DNA from: Desulfuromonadaceae bacterium
GTDB lineage: Bacteria; Desulfobacterota; Desulfuromonadia; Geobacterales; Pseudopelobacteraceae
Direction of reading: 5' to 3'
DNA length: 64,000 nt
Assembly (NCBI GenBank): GCA_028688955.1
Contig: JAQTXD010000001.1
Coordinates: 1-64,000 of the forward strand
This document shows, piece by piece, positions 1-7,237 of the stretch. Within the stretch, counting starts at the first letter, position 1. Each line of letters opens with the position of its first letter. Made by a program: the position numbers and the translations under genes. Below the pieces are notes generated by a model. That model was not told the DNA's origin. It made no database searches and saw only the letters and a program-made list of their open reading frames with translations.

Positions 1-713
1 CGAACCTGCGCATAATCACGCACACGGCGTAGCAGGCGATTGGCATTCCGTGGCGTCCCACGACTGCGGCGTGCCAGTTCAGATGCCCCGAGAGGATCAA
101 TTTCCATTCCGAGAATTCCGGATGACAGGCATATAATTGTGGAAAGCTCATCATATGTGTAAAACTCGAGTCGTGAAATAACACCAAAGCGGTCGCGAAG
201 AGGCGAAGAGAGAAGACCGGCCCGGGTTGTGGCGCCTACCAGAGTAAATCGGGGCAGATCCAGCTTGATAGAACGGGCGCTCGGCCCCTGGCCGATAATG
301 ATATCAAGCTGATAATCCTCCATCGCCGGGTAGAGTATTTCTTCAACAATATGGGATATCCGGTGGATTTCGTCGATAAAAAGAACATCATGCGGTTCAA
401 GGTTGGTAAGAATTGCAGCGAGGTCCCCCGGACGTTCAATTACAGGTCCGGACGTTGACTTGATATTTACCCCCATCTCGCAGGCGATGATGTTTGCCAG
501 TGTCGTTTTGCCGAGTCCGGGAGGACCATACAGAAGCACATGATCAAGAGCTTCCCCTCTCCCCTTGGCGGCATCTATGAACAGTCGCAGATTTCCCTTA
601 ATCTTTTCCTGACCGATATAATCGTCAAAAGAACGGGGGCGGAGCGTCGTATCAAATTGAGAGTCGTCATCCCGTCTTTCCGGGGTAACGGTACGGACAG
701 TCCGCGAGTCCAT
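1..713 (-). CDS. ruvB: Holliday junction branch migration helicase RuvB (3' part beyond window)
   Basis: RuvB is the hexameric AAA+ motor that, with RuvA, drives branch migration of Holliday junctions in recombination and repair. The translated part begins [17 protein letters not shown] and shows the family landmarks in order: the DYIGQ region, Walker [10 protein letters not shown], Walker B FIDEIHR and the sensor-1/arginine region [18 protein letters not shown], followed by [10 protein letters not shown]. About 237 codons are present, so the C-terminal winged-helix part lies to the left of the window. The ATG shares one base with the stop of hisS (TGATG), so translation is probably coupled to it. 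ruvAC are not in the window. The identification is secure; only the end is missing. Confidence 0.97.
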
Positions 714-1969
714 CACCCCTCCGACCTCCTGATAATTGACTGAACACCGGCAACCGACAGGGGAGCCTCAGTCTGACGTCCGTCAATCATTCGCTTTACT
801 GTGGCACGTCCTGATGCCACTTCATTTTCACCTATTACGAGGCTGTAGGACGCCTTGAGTTTGTCAGCTCGGCGCATCTGGCTTTTCAGGCTTTTCCCCT
901 CATAATCCATTTCGACGCGGATTCCGGATTTCAGCAGACCATCAAACAGGGAAAAAGCGGTGTCACGCTCCCCCTCCCCCATAGTCGCAATAAACAGGTC
1001 CGGATGGGTCGTAAAGTCCTGTTCGTTCAGCAGGAGGGCAATTCGCTCCACGCCCATCGCAAAACCGATGCCTGGAATAGCCGGGCCGCCCAACTGGGAG
1101 ATCAGACCGTCATAACGCCCTCCGGCGGCAACGGCAGATTGAGAACCAAGCAGACCGGTAACCATTTCAAATGTTGTACGGGTGTAGTAATCTAGGCCTC
1201 GAACCATACGGGCATTGATACTGTACGGAGTGGACGAAATTTTCAGATAGCGGCACACGCTGGCAAAATGATCGTCACAACCGCTGCAGAGGTGTTCCAG
1301 TACGGAAGGAGCGCCGGCAGTGGCGGCAACACAGCCGGGAACCTTGCAGTCAAGCGTGCGAAGCGGATTGGTGGCAAAACGTCGCCTGCAATCTTCACAG
1401 AGGTGCTCCATGCGCTCATCCAGATAACTTCGTAAGGCCGCACGGTAAGCAGGTCGGCATTCCGGACACCCGAGCGAGTTAATCTGAAGCGTAGGCTCCG
1501 ACAGGCCGATTTCTCGAAAAAACGATGTCAACATATTTAGAACCTGGGCATCGGCCAATGGGTCGTTGACACCGGTGATCTCCGCACCAATCTGATGAAA
1601 CTGTCGATATCGCCCCTTTTGCGGGCGTTCATAGCGAAACATCGGCCCCAGGTAATAGAGCTTTGCTACCGGATCCTGAGTGTACATTTTATGTTCTATG
1701 AATGCACGCATTACTCCGGCGGTTCCTTCCGGTCTGAGGGTCACGCTGTTTTCACCTTTATCAACAAACGTGTACATTTCTTTTTCCACGATATCGGTTG
1801 TATCACCGATAGAGCGGCAGAATAGCTCGGTTTTCTCCAGGACGGGAACCCGGATCTCACCAAAACCGTTCAATTCGAATACCCGTCGGGCTGTCTGTTC
1901 AATATGCTGCCAGCGGCCGGATTCTCCCGGCAGAATATCATTGAATCCCTTGACTGCAGTTAGTGCCAC
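713..1969 (-). CDS. hisS: Histidyl-tRNA synthetase
   Basis: Class II aminoacyl-tRNA synthetase that charges tRNA-His, 418 aa, the usual length. Visible landmarks are the N-terminal GFNDILPG, motif 2 with [16 protein letters not shown], the two histidine-specific motifs ([10 protein letters not shown] and GGRYDGL), motif 3 [15 protein letters not shown], and the C-terminal anticodon-binding domain. The insertion domain has several Cys pairs (CPEC, CEDC, CSGC), as in many bacterial HisRS. The start is GTG, preceded five bases upstream by a clear AGGTG ribosome site; no better start is in frame. It is followed directly by ruvB with a one-base overlap. A terminator-like hairpin lies upstream and belongs to the neighbouring GGDEF gene, so hisS may have its own promoter, but I could not pick one out. 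Confidence 0.97.
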
Positions 1970-2057: not shown

Positions 2058-3422
2058 TCAGGAAACGCCGGTTACACGCTGGATTCGGTTTTTCCCGGAT
2101 GTTTTGCCAACATACATGGCCTTGTCGGCCATTTCAAGCAGTACCTCTTTAGATGCAGCATCATCAGGGCAGCAGGCATACCCGATACTGCAGGTCAAAC
2201 GGATTACCTGCCCATCCGGGCCGGAAAATTTATGGGCCTCAACATGTCTGCGAATACGTTCAGCAACTTTTTCAGCGATATCACAGGGGGTTTCGACAAG
2301 AATAGCGGTGTATTCATCGCCGCCATAACGGATCACAATATCAACATCACGCACCGCTTTTTTGATGAGCGACCCGAATTCTGCCAGAACACGGCTGCCA
2401 ATCATATGCCCGTGACTATCGTTAACCTGCTTGAACGAATCAACGTCAATAAAAAGAACCGCCATATGCGAGGCATATCGCTCCACACGTTTCATTTCAC
2501 GTTCCAAGGCAATATCCAGATAGCGATGGTTATAAAGTCCACTTACATCATCAATGAACAGCAGATTCTTCGCATGTGAAAACGTTTCCGCATTTTCGAA
2601 AGCCTGCAGTGATTGTTCTATCAAGAAAAGAACATTTTTTTTGTATTTAGCCATATCCGGAAGAACAGAGGATGGATCGTTCAGTAGCACAATCATACCA
2701 AACGGAACAGAACGCTTGTATATCGGGACCAGTAGGGCGGAGGTAAATCCTTCTGAACTATAGGGTGCAGAAAAATGCAATTGCTGAACGGTAAATTCCT
2801 CAAAGGCCGACAAGTCAAGCCGTGACCGGATCTCCTTGGTAAGGGATCGCCCCAGTTTTGTAGAAATCCCCTTGGCTATTTTGAGCTCCAGCGTATCATC
2901 AATCATAAAAAAACCGAGCGCATTAGTCAGCCCGACTTCACGAGCAATCGCTTCAACACACAAGAGATAGAGGTGTTCGGAGTCCAGACAGCCGGCGATT
3001 GCCTGGCTTGCACGAAACAGTGAAAGCATATTTTTCAGTTCTTCGTTTTCATCAAGAAGACGACGTTGCTGAATACACTGGGCAACAGAATGTTTGAACT
3101 CATCAGGGTTTACCGGTTTGACGAGATAGTCACGCGCCCCACGTTTCAGGGCAAAAATTGCCGATTCCAGATTCGCGTTTCCGGTAACCATTATGACATC
3201 AACAGTAGGGTGACTCTCACGAACACGGGAAAGGATCTCAAGGCCACTGATATCAGGCATGACCAGATCGGTTATGACAAGCGAATACTGACCCTTTGAA
3301 AGCAATTCGAGGCCATCGTTGCCGCAGGAGGCGGTCTCAACACGATACCCTTCAACCTCCAGCAGGTTGGAAAACATCTCTCGAAAAAAACGGTCATCTT
3401 CAACCAGCAGGATTGAGTCCAT
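2058..3422 (-). CDS. Receiver-GAF-GGDEF response regulator with the Hypr (cGAMP synthase) signature
   Basis: 454 aa. Residues 1-120 are a receiver domain (acidic pocket EDD 8-10, phospho-acceptor D52, K102). Residues 130-275 look like a divergent GAF region, and 285-450 are a GGDEF cyclase domain. The metal/guanine region reads FKQVND (N334) and GHMIGS (338-343), so the Asp that normally contacts the second guanine is Ser343. This Asp-to-Ser change is the signature of Hypr GGDEF enzymes, known from Geobacter GacA, which has a receiver plus a GGDEF domain and makes 3',3'-cGAMP along with some c-di-GMP. The active motif is GGDEY rather than GGDEF (367-371), and an RxxD inhibitory site (RDVD 358-361) is kept. 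Phosphorylation of D52 by an unlinked kinase would be expected to switch it on. cGAMP synthesis is inferred from the signature residue, not shown. Only a weak ribosome site (TGGA) precedes the ATG. Confidence 0.85.
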   Translation of the reverse strand: MDSILLVEDDRFFREMFSNLLEVEGYRVETASCGNDGLELLSKGQYSLVITDLVMPDISGLEILSRVRESHPTVDVIMVTGNANLESAIFALKRGARDYLVKPVNPDEFKHSVAQCIQQRRLLDENEELKNMLSLFRASQAIAGCLDSEHLYLLCVEAIAREVGLTNALGFFMIDDTLELKIAKGISTKLGRSLTKEIRSRLDLSAFEEFTVQQLHFSAPYSSEGFTSALLVPIYKRSVPFGMIVLLNDPSSVLPDMAKYKKNVLFLIEQSLQAFENAETFSHAKNLLFIDDVSGLYNHRYLDIALEREMKRVERYASHMAVLFIDVDSFKQVNDSHGHMIGSRVLAEFGSLIKKAVRDVDIVIRYGGDEYTAILVETPCDIAEKVAERIRRHVEAHKFSGPDGQVIRLTCSIGYACCPDDAASKEVLLEMADKAMYVGKTSGKNRIQRVTGVS

Positions 3423-3510: not shown

Positions 3511-5901
3511 TTAATCAGGTTTATAGGGGGTCGAGACAGCCCAGGTATGGCCATCGGTAACAAGCTCGATCGTTCTGTCCTGATCCGTTCGATACGTACG
3601 AATACCTTTTGAACTCAAAAGATCAATAATGCGCGATGAAGGAAGACCGAATCGGTTCTCCGCAGCGACTGAAATCAGCGCAATTTCCGGATGTACTGAT
3701 TCAATGAATCTCTCTGACGTCGAGTATCGACTGCCGTGGTGCCCGACCTTAATCACGGTTGATTTCAGTTTATTTTGCCCGGCAAGCATCTGCTGTTCAG
3801 CCACAAAGCCGGCATCTGCGCAAAAGATAATACTGAAACTGCCATATTTGAGACGAAATACAAGAGATTGCTCATTGACGCTGTACTCGTCCCCGTGAGT
3901 TGAATACTGCCCTCCCTTTGCCGGTGAAAGGACCGTGATGGTTACCTGTCCCGGCAGTGCAATTTCATCTCCTGCTGCAATCGTGCGCCGTGGTATCACT
4001 CTTTTACCCAGCGCATTCAGAACGTCTGAAGAGACATCTGATCCACTCCAAAATTCACCGACCTCAAAGTTTTTTATGACAAACGGAAGACCTCCGCTAT
4101 GATCCGGATGACTATGAGTAGCGATCATCCGGTCAATTCGTCTGACATGCAAAGCACCGAGCGCCGGTGCAAGGAATCGCTGACCAAAATCGTTGCCTGT
4201 TTCATGGAGATAACCGCCACCATCCACAAGCATGTTGGAACCATCAGGAAACGTCACCAGCATAGATTCACCCTGTCCGACACTGAGCATCGTAATATGT
4301 AGCTGCCCATCAGAATGAGAGGCTGCGTACACGTGGAGAACAATGGCACATATCGGTACCAGCACCCCTGTAATCAGAAGTATAAATCTGCCCCTCAAAA
4401 ATGTCATACCTGCCATAAACATCAGAAAAAAGGATATATCCGACTTTGTGATGCCATAGAACGTAATCACCGGCAGGGAAGTACACCACATCACAAATTT
4501 GTTGGAAATAGCGACGAGTGATGCGGCAGGCCAGAGAAGCAGAGACGCGAGACTCGGAAATATAACAATGAGCGGTAATGCGATAAAACCGGCCAGTACA
4601 GCACCATAGCCTAACAGAGGGACAATAATAAAATTGGTTATAATTCCGTTGAGCGAAGCAATGTTAAAAGTAAACAGCACGGGCAGAAGTGTTACGCACG
4701 ATGCGGCAATTGATACAGCGATAAATTGAACCAAACCTCGTACCACCCGAGATTTGATCGTGGCGGTATTTTTCATGATTACCGGGACAACCAGTAAAAT
4801 TCCCCATAAAGACAGAAAAGAGAGTTGAAATGACACGTCAAACAAGGTAGGCGGATATATGGCGACTAAAGCAAAGGCCGCCAGCAGAAGCGTATTAATT
4901 GCATCATGTTCCCGCTCTACACAGAGAGCTGCCGCAAAAACTGTCAGCATGATCACTGAACGCGCTGTCGCCGGTGCATTGCCAGTCAATTGCAGATAAA
5001 AAAGCATAATCGGAAGAGCAATCAGTATCGCAAGTGGGCGGACATTCCAGTGCAGAAGCAGGTATTCACATCGTGTCAATGTCCAGAGTAACAGTATGCT
5101 GATAGATGCAGCAATGACTCCGATGTGAAATCCGGAAATTGAAAGGATGTGATTCACGCCTGCCCGTGTGTATGCATCGGCCAGATCACGGGGTATTCTT
5201 CTTTGATCACCTATAAGCAGTGCAGTTAATACTGAAGAGTTCCGCTCATCCGGGATTGAGTGACGGATTGAGTCTCCCAGAGCTCGAGCCCATTTATCTA
5301 TGGTACGCTGCGTGGTTTCAACGGCGGCTGCACGAATGAGAACGATATCGTTTTGAGTGTTAACACGACCAATTGCTGATACTCCCCTGTACGCAAGGTA
5401 ACGGGAATAATCAAATTCACCCGGCAGACCGAGTCGATGCGGCACGGTAACCCGGGAGAGAAAGCGGATGCGGTCACCACGTGTCAGCGTTACATCTCCC
5501 TCGCTGACGTGCAGCAGTAAAAGGCCGGTCACCGGTGTAGGACGATCACCGCTGAATAGACGTTCCACTTGGACGGTAACGCGACTTCCATCGGGAGAAA
5601 TTGATGGTCGTTCTGAAATAACCCCTTCAATTACTATTGGACTCTCGGAAAGTGATTTTTGAATTGAGAAGGGAGTCAGTTCAGGAGACACCCAGGGCTG
5701 CAGGGCGTAGTGCCCCCAGAGAAAGTAAAATAACGACGTACAGATGGCAAACAAAGTCAAATTAGACAGGAAGCATGACAGTACCAGACATAAAAAAACG
5801 GCCAGTACAGCGGTGAACCCACAATAGGAGCCGTTGAAGGTAAACAGCAGCATTCCGGCCGTCATACACACAAAAGGTATCAGAAACGGCCAACGCCGCA
5901 T
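3511..5901 (-). CDS. comEC: ComEC/Rec2-family DNA uptake channel
   Basis: Large polytopic inner-membrane protein, about 796 aa, with the three-part ComEC layout: an N-terminal hydrophobic and OB-like region (roughly 1-200), the Competence domain with many membrane segments (about 220-510), and a C-terminal metallo-beta-lactamase-like domain. That last domain carries the metal-binding THSHPDHSGG near residue 595 and GHHGSRYSTS near 720. ComEC moves single-stranded DNA across the inner membrane in competent bacteria, and the lactamase-like domain has been proposed to be the nuclease. Other competence genes are not nearby, so activity here is inferred from family. The start is uncertain: ATG at 5901 begins a natural membrane segment (MRRWPFLIPF), an in-frame TTG lies at 5913, and neither has a clear ribosome site. 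Confidence 0.9.
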   Translation of the reverse strand: MRRWPFLIPFVCMTAGMLLFTFNGSYCGFTAVLAVFLCLVLSCFLSNLTLFAICTSLFYFLWGHYALQPWVSPELTPFSIQKSLSESPIVIEGVISERPSISPDGSRVTVQVERLFSGDRPTPVTGLLLLHVSEGDVTLTRGDRIRFLSRVTVPHRLGLPGEFDYSRYLAYRGVSAIGRVNTQNDIVLIRAAAVETTQRTIDKWARALGDSIRHSIPDERNSSVLTALLIGDQRRIPRDLADAYTRAGVNHILSISGFHIGVIAASISILLLWTLTRCEYLLLHWNVRPLAILIALPIMLFYLQLTGNAPATARSVIMLTVFAAALCVEREHDAINTLLLAAFALVAIYPPTLFDVSFQLSFLSLWGILLVVPVIMKNTATIKSRVVRGLVQFIAVSIAASCVTLLPVLFTFNIASLNGIITNFIIVPLLGYGAVLAGFIALPLIVIFPSLASLLLWPAASLVAISNKFVMWCTSLPVITFYGITKSDISFFLMFMAGMTFLRGRFILLITGVLVPICAIVLHVYAASHSDGQLHITMLSVGQGESMLVTFPDGSNMLVDGGGYLHETGNDFGQRFLAPALGALHVRRIDRMIATHSHPDHSGGLPFVIKNFEVGEFWSGSDVSSDVLNALGKRVIPRRTIAAGDEIALPGQVTITVLSPAKGGQYSTHGDEYSVNEQSLVFRLKYGSFSIIFCADAGFVAEQQMLAGQNKLKSTVIKVGHHGSRYSTSERFIESVHPEIALISVAAENRFGLPSSRIIDLLSSKGIRTYRTDQDRTIELVTDGHTWAVSTPYKPD

Positions 5902-6085
5902 CAAGATTGCCAATTAATCACGAAATGAGAAACTTTTCCGGATGTGCATCAGTAATGCTGCCGCCACATCTAACCTAAGCATATTAAAGAGAAAGAAGAG
6001 AAGCATGAATCCCCCCGACTTACTTAATTTTTGTTTAAAAAGTAAGCATCAAACTTTTTTTCACGTATATCATAGCCCAAGCGAC

Positions 6086-6190: not shown

Positions 6191-7237
6191 ATGAAAGAGC
6201 ATATTCTTATCGTTGATGATGAAGAGATGATTCGGGATTTGCTTTCCGCTGCCTTAACGCAGGATGGGTATGTTTGTCATCAGTCTTCAAATGTTGATGA
6301 GGCATTTGTATTAATGAGTGAGCAGCCTGTTGACCTCGTCATTTCCGACATCATGATGCCAGGCAGAAGCGGCGTCGAACTCCTGCGTGACCTGAAAAAA
6401 ATAAACCCGGATATTTCTGTGCTGATGATTACCGGACTCTCCGATATGAACACTGCAATGGAGTGCGTACATCTTGGCGCTGATGATTATATCACCAAGC
6501 CGTTTGGAATCAATCGCGTCATATTGACCGTAAAGAACCTCATTGAACGGCGGTGCCTTGCTCTTGAAAAGAAGAATTATCAGGTTAGTCTTGAGTTCAA
6601 GGTAATGGAACAGACATCCCAGATCCGAAAGACCATGGATGAGCTTTCCAACGCATATGACAACACCCTGACAGCATTGGTGAAGGCTCTTGATGCCCGC
6701 GAAAAGGAGGTTGGTTCACATTCGGAACGGGTTATGAATTATGCCTCTTTTCTGGGGGGTAAAGTTGGAATATCCGGCAGGGAACTTCAGGAACTCTCAA
6801 AAGGCGCACTGCTTCACGATATCGGGAAAATCGGTATTTCTGATAATATACTGCTCAAACCAGGTCCGCTTGATGATGACGAATGGGTCGAGATGCGCAA
6901 ACACCCACAGGTTGGATATGCCATTCTATCAGAAATCGACTTCCTGAAAATACCGGCCGATATCATTCTCAGCCACCATGAACGCTTTGATGGATCCGGC
7001 TACCCGAAAAAACTCGTTGGGGAACAGATTCCAATCGGCTCACGGATCTTTGCGCTTGTCGACACTCTCGATGCTATGACGTCTGATCGCCCCTACCGAA
7101 AAGCGCTTCCCTTTTCAGCTGTTGCAGCCGAAGTTCTTAAATACAGGGGAAGTCAATTTGACCCCGCCATCGTTGATCTGTTTCTTGCAATACCCCGTAA
7201 TCACTGGGAAGAATGCGCAGGTAAACATTTTTTATAA
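6191..7237 (+). CDS. Receiver-HD-GYP cyclic dinucleotide phosphodiesterase
   Basis: 348 aa. Receiver domain at 1-120 with acidic residues DDEE (9-12), phospho-acceptor D53 and K103, then a helical linker (130-165) and an HD-GYP domain (165-330). The metal-ligand motif HD is present in LLHDIGKI (209-210), a second His pair in SHHERFDG (262-263), and the GYP motif as GSGYPKKLVGEQIP (268-281). HD-GYP enzymes hydrolyse c-di-GMP, and some prefer 3',3'-cGAMP. The family cannot be told apart by eye at that level. It lies only a few kilobases from a Hypr GGDEF protein, so a cGAMP role is worth considering. AGGGA about 8 bases upstream supports the ATG. The gene is alone on the plus strand, between comEC and the convergent fbp operon. 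Confidence 0.92.
   Translation: MKEHILIVDDEEMIRDLLSAALTQDGYVCHQSSNVDEAFVLMSEQPVDLVISDIMMPGRSGVELLRDLKKINPDISVLMITGLSDMNTAMECVHLGADDYITKPFGINRVILTVKNLIERRCLALEKKNYQVSLEFKVMEQTSQIRKTMDELSNAYDNTLTALVKALDAREKEVGSHSERVMNYASFLGGKVGISGRELQELSKGALLHDIGKIGISDNILLKPGPLDDDEWVEMRKHPQVGYAILSEIDFLKIPADIILSHHERFDGSGYPKKLVGEQIPIGSRIFALVDTLDAMTSDRPYRKALPFSAVAAEVLKYRGSQFDPAIVDLFLAIPRNHWEECAGKHFL

Follow-up and report, generated by a model that had tools for sequence, protein, structure and literature searches.

The closest described relatives of the protein analysed here are the GacA enzymes of Geobacter, Hypr GGDEF proteins with a Ser at the position that is occupied by Asp in diguanylate cyclases. Changing this Ser to Asp turns GacA of G. 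sulfurreducens (GsGacA) into a diguanylate cyclase (PMC6456294, PMC9140294), Thr is also known as a Hypr residue (PMC9140294), and, in the available text of Hallberg et al. 2019 (PMC6456294), the natural enzymes with Ser or Thr are described as exclusively having the GGDE[F/Y] motif. On the receptor side, a class I aptamer with the G20A change binds cGAMP (PMC6274999), and 13 GEMM-Ib riboswitches were reported in G. sulfurreducens (Tan et al., PMC8835794), whose cGAMP regulon includes cytochromes and the transpeptidases GSU0181-0183 (PMC6456294).

The window is the whole 64,000-nucleotide stretch of DNA that we analysed, and the gene in question, its neighbours and its key codons are listed in Table 1. 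The original prediction had placed this gene next to hisS and comEC, and both indeed flank it on the same strand. Pfam assigned residues 4-113 of the encoded protein, which we call the window protein, to Response_reg and residues 290-446 to GGDEF. The part between them, from about 115 to 285, had no Pfam match and may be GAF-like, solely by analogy with GacA. The receiver Asp is residue 52. Among the NCBIfam matches listed (25 of 116 families), TIGR00254, a general domain model, was the only one above its cut-off. The AlphaFold model had a mean pLDDT of 87.2 and a pTM of 0.52, the latter leaving the domain arrangement unsure; when the protein was searched with Foldseek, the ten best matches were PleD chains, and the GacA structure 6d9m ranked 18th. 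A search of the window against Rfam, run at gathering thresholds, yielded 0 matches. Promoter-like sites were no more frequent than in shuffled sequence (6 observed versus 6.6 expected), and 6 terminator-like sites were observed versus 4.1 expected (sd 1.8).

Table 1. Genes and codons around the gacA orthologue, in window coordinates
Feature	Position	Strand	Remark
gacA orthologue	2058..3422	minus	ORF with ATG start, 454 aa
hisS	713..1969	minus	downstream neighbour of gacA, conserved
comEC	3511..5913	minus	upstream neighbour of gacA, conserved
Receiver-HD-GYP protein	6191..7237	plus	divergent from comEC
GGDEY active-site motif, residues 367-371	2310..2324	minus	
Ser343 codon	2394..2396	minus	Hypr specificity residue
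His299 codon	2526..2528	minus	cross-dimer position (Tyr in GmGacA, Arg in PleD)

The central claim made for this protein was that its Ser343, the last residue of a GHMIGS motif beginning at residue 338, stands where diguanylate cyclases have Asp. Among 302 PDB sequence matches, the best was 6d9m (6.2e-59), a fusion of T4 lysozyme with the GGDEF domain from GacA of G. metallireducens (GmGacA). The GGDEF domain of the window protein was identical to that of GmGacA at 97 of 165 aligned residues and to that of PleD at 58 of 157 (37%). In these alignments Ser343 falls on the Ser of GmGacA and on the Asp of the PleD motif GHDIGD, so that it does occupy the guanine-contact position, where the Asp meets the Watson-Crick face of guanine. 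The genome that carries the window has 33 GGDEF matches, and we read the specificity residue in 30 of them; the other three comprise two weak matches and one that belongs, as its second part, to the domain of L044, which is among the 30. The residue was Asp in 28 domains, Asn in one and Ser in the window protein alone. Since it is the only Ser among these domains and is Ser in 124/124 orthologues, Ser343 is not there by chance. The domain with Asn (L041, contig C74:3113-3568) has the sequence GHSAGN at this site and an intact GGDEF motif.

The remaining active-site residues were tabulated from aligned columns, not with a loose regular expression. N334, S343, R358, D361, G367-G368-D369-E370 and R389 were identical in all 124 orthologues, three of which are fragments shorter than 430 residues; the count is partly preselected, because the orthologue ORFs had been chosen for GG[DE][DE][FY], although no locus failed this filter. 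An intact GGDE(F/Y), the invariant Asn and the conserved I-site residues (R358, D361 and R389), together with the Ser position, support the Hypr reading at the level of sequence. The suggestion that GGDEY instead of GGDEF may alter activity did not hold up: Tyr is the majority residue of GacA at the last motif position (112/124, with Phe in 12), GGDE[F/Y] being the natural form in the source cited above, and we discarded it as a mark of altered activity. Position 52 was Asp in 117 orthologues, Glu in four, Ala in one and a gap in two. The D52A mutant of GsGacA is reported to give a cGAMP level comparable to the wild type (PMC6456294), suggesting that phosphorylation of D52 may matter little here and that a phospho-mimic at this site is probably not the key test.

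To our reading the protein is not only Hypr-like but GacA itself. At E<=1e-60 it was present in 124 of the 141 genomes of the order, its own genome counted. We built a tree of 62 rows, containing the window protein, GmGacA, 25 of the 123 other orthologues, 28 other GGDEF domains of the same genome, six GAF-type proteins and PleD. In this tree the window protein lies inside a 27-row GacA group with GmGacA (support 100/99), apart from the 28 other GGDEF domains of its own genome. Gene order points the same way: among the 124 orthologues, hisS was adjacent in 122, comEC in 117 and both in 115, and the nine exceptions include three in which the contig ends on the side of the absent neighbour. The order comEC-gacA-hisS as a feature of gacA was derived here, not from the literature. 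Because the sequence match, the tree group and the gene order agree, the window protein is, on these grounds, GacA. It looks like the standard GacA of its family, so the original observation and the Hypr reading drawn from it hold, for an enzyme type that is already known.

The genome of the window (3.95 Mb in 212 contigs, 98.98% complete) also carries the expected kind of receptor. We found 15 GEMM-I aptamers and read the specificity base in all of them, the 10 best matches also as alignments. This base, model position 11, presumably corresponds to G20 of Vc2, by our own reading of the Vc2 sequence. It was A in 13 aptamers and G in two (L001 and L002), and judged by this base the 13 A20 aptamers are cGAMP-type GEMM-I riboswitches. 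A strict GEMM-Ib pattern built from these aptamers, which demands a C beside the specificity base as well as its G partner, gave 13 matches in this genome and 0 in the reversed control. Some of the riboswitches could be foreign, given the 212 contigs and the estimated contamination of 5.91%.

The 13 switches are spread over nine sites, of which four are tandem pairs. Downstream of the tandem pairs are genes for an RCC1-repeat protein and a 3-CxxCH protein (L242), a DUF5666 protein (L245), an L,D-transpeptidase (YkuD) with SPOR followed by an alanine-zipper lipoprotein and a second transpeptidase (YkuD) (L246), and a one-CxxCH protein with an outer-membrane efflux protein (L248). The single switches precede a 493-aa ORF followed by proteins with 5, 8 and 16 CxxCH motifs (L241), a DUF4382 protein (L243), a beta-barrel protein (L244) and a protein without a Pfam match (L249), and one is at a contig end (L247). 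The 493-aa ORF reads by eye as an outer-membrane porin, its Pfam beta-barrel match being sub-threshold (E 0.022). The multiheme cytochromes and the transpeptidase cluster appear to be of the same kind as genes in the cGAMP regulon published for G. sulfurreducens. Cytochromes follow only some of the switches, and the DUF4382, DUF5666 and RCC1 targets have no evident link to electron transfer.

Across the order, the strict pattern was found in 123 of the 141 genomes, with one match in the reversed control over all 141. Both gacA and the pattern were present in 113 genomes, gacA alone in 11, the pattern alone in 10 and neither in seven. This association is loose (Fisher P 0.0015, relatedness not corrected), and other enzymes with Ser or Thr may be part of the cause. 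Seven of the 17 genomes without a gacA match have a GAF-GGDEF-like protein carrying Ser; for two of these proteins the GAF domain was checked with Pfam. We rejected a simple joint loss of GacA and GEMM-Ib, as the GacA-less genomes G106 and G108 of the window's genus keep GEMM-I aptamers, including A20 forms. The strict pattern misses A20 aptamers with G beside the specificity base, as found in these two genomes. Since it demands a C beside the specificity base, and the aptamers of G106 and G108 carry A, G, C or T at the specificity base itself, a genome that lacks the pattern does not necessarily lack A20 aptamers. The specificity base (L332-L357) was A in 7, G in 5, C in 5 and T in 1 of 18 aptamers of G108, and A in 5, G in 2 and C in 1 of 8 aptamers of G106; aptamers with C or T may differ in the ligand that they prefer. 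Four further genomes of the same genus, G102, G109, G110 and G112, have gacA without the strict pattern and contain 4, 7, 11 and 3 GEMM-I aptamers, respectively. The specificity bases read there were G 4, C 2 and A 1 for G109 (7 of 7), G 5 and A 1 for G110 (6 of 11), and G for G102 (1 of 4).

Two other GGDEF families of the order came up in this survey. The first is a GAF-GGDE[Y/F] family with frames of about 350-390 aa, found in 44/141 genomes at E<=1e-80. All 20 proteins fetched (L282-L301, from 20 of the 44 genomes) carry the Hypr Ser and, at the cross-dimer site, Ala or Ser. Of the 7 genomes in genus g7 without a gacA match, 6 contain the family. The second has Thr at the specificity position, Met at the cross-dimer site and an N-terminal part that looks hydrophobic by eye, and was found in 61/141 genomes at E<=1e-70; Thr and GGDE[F/Y] were present in all 20 proteins fetched (L410-L429, from 20 of the 61 genomes). 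Members of this family (L384 and L406) are the sole Ser/Thr domains seen in G106 (13 domains read) and G108 (24 of 25 read). As Thr is a known Hypr residue (PMC9140294), the family is a candidate further cGAMP synthase.

With a probability of about 0.92, we read the window protein as a Hypr homodimer that takes GTP and ATP, has 3',3'-cGAMP as its main product in the cell and thereby turns on the GEMM-Ib switches. The residues, the orthology, the gene order and the riboswitches with their neighbours form the direct basis of this reading; catalysis, product, ligand binding and regulation are taken over from characterised orthologues. By analogy with these, each subunit would bind one NTP, and Ser343, which replaces the guanine-enforcing Asp, would let either purine be accepted, so that GTP and ATP are both used. 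Asp369 would hold Mg and Glu370 would act as the cross-dimer base, as described for GacA (PMC6456294). The 3',3'-cGAMP formed in this way is predicted to bind the GEMM-Ib riboswitches of the genome and to switch on genes for surface contact and extracellular electron transfer, and c-di-GMP bound at the I-site probably damps the enzyme.

The one place where the window protein departs from what has been described is the cross-dimer site. Tyr304 of GmGacA may stack on the substrate held by the other subunit, at a position that is Arg in the majority of diguanylate cyclases; when it is Tyr, Ser, Ala or Gln, the enzymes make mostly cGAMP, two enzymes with Arg make more c-di-GMP, and the mutation Y304R shifts GacA towards c-di-GMP (Hallberg et al. 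2019, PMC6456294). In the aligned column the window protein has His299. A non-Arg residue at this site is usual for Hypr enzymes, not strictly defining, as the two with Arg illustrate, and His is absent from the residues (Tyr, Ser, Ala, Gln, Arg) named for characterised enzymes in the available text of PMC6456294. Of the 124 orthologues, 73 have Tyr at this site, 47 have His and four have Gln, and all 47 His-type proteins belong to the window's own family, 34 of them to its genus. The cross-dimer residue is thus the variable point of GacA, and His299 is the sole feature of the window protein outside the coverage of the literature examined, as far as the available text of these papers goes. One interpretation, which we consider unlikely, is that GacA of this family changed its cross-dimer Tyr to His and thereby acquired a choice of nucleotide that depends on pH or on which nucleotide binds first, with the ratio of cGAMP to c-di-GMP retuned and the type of riboswitch kept.

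The same residue gives rise to the alternative that survives best, namely that the protein is a promiscuous Hypr enzyme but makes chiefly c-di-GMP in the cell, because His299 favours guanine as Arg does. His is basic and lies outside the natural residues listed, and both Y304R and the two natural Arg enzymes move in this direction. Against this, the strict cGAMP-switch pattern was found in 43/47 genomes with His-type GacA, a share close to that of the Tyr type (66/73; Gln type, 4/4). Nor did the window's genome offer another source of the signal: the 30 GGDEF domains read of its 33 include no second one with Ser or Thr, and neither the GAF-Ser family (E<=1e-80) nor the Thr family (E<=1e-70) had a match. 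The window protein is therefore the only candidate source that we see for the 13 cGAMP-type switches, and we regard a c-di-GMP maker as improbable. Still less credible is a degenerate GGDEF domain that only binds a nucleotide, as a receptor or scaffold; GGDEY in place of GGDEF could be taken to hint at it, but the catalytic residues are the same in 124/124 orthologues, Tyr is their prevailing last residue and GGDE[F/Y] is treated as active by Hallberg et al. 2019 (PMC6456294), and we rejected this explanation. That the protein is an ordinary diguanylate cyclase with a neutral change at Ser343, as its 37% identity to PleD might suggest, can practically be dismissed in view of the Ser in every orthologue, the GEMM-Ib switches in the genome and the conversion of GsGacA by Ser-to-Asp. 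The reading as a cGAMP-forming GacA is the one that we retain.

Beyond comEC lies the receiver-HD-GYP gene, divergent from comEC. Upstream sequence of at least 5.9 kb was available for 36 named loci, and 19 of these have a homologue of the gene upstream, in the opposite direction. PmxA, an HD-GYP enzyme of Myxococcus, degrades cGAMP (PMC8844925). The neighbour is a possible cyclic-dinucleotide phosphodiesterase, perhaps for the signal made next door.

These results extend the GacA/cGAMP/GEMM-Ib system over most of the order searched, many of the genomes that have it being metagenome-assembled, and the gene order together with Ser343 makes a good tag for gacA. The Hypr idea from which we started holds and is not new; what is added is a member with His at the cross-dimer site. 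This residue is a natural variable, through which one could test in a simple way how an enzyme that is symmetric comes to favour an asymmetric product.

Compared with known systems, the window protein is closest to GacA (GSU1658 in G. sulfurreducens; Gmet_1914 in G. metallireducens, 6d9m), with which it shares the receiver and GGDEF domains, the Ser, the Asn, GGDE(F/Y) and the I-site residues, and, as in Geobacter, GEMM-Ib riboswitches are present in the genome. It differs from GmGacA, of which the GGDEF domain alone was compared, in having His299 instead of Tyr304 and GGDEY instead of GGDEF. GSU1937, the second Hypr enzyme of G. sulfurreducens, likewise has Ser at the specificity position but is a transmembrane HAMP protein with a GGDDF motif (PMC8835794), and the 30 domains read in the window's genome include no second one with Ser. 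Bd0367 of Bdellovibrio bacteriovorus, likened here by its description, is also a Hypr GGDEF protein with Ser (S214); it makes cGAMP and also c-di-GMP and c-di-AMP, belongs to another bacterial group and has its phenotype in the gliding exit from prey (PMC9140294). PleD of Caulobacter has the receiver-GGDEF fold in common with the window protein, whereas its specificity residue is Asp, its cross-dimer residue Arg and its active-site motif GGEEF.
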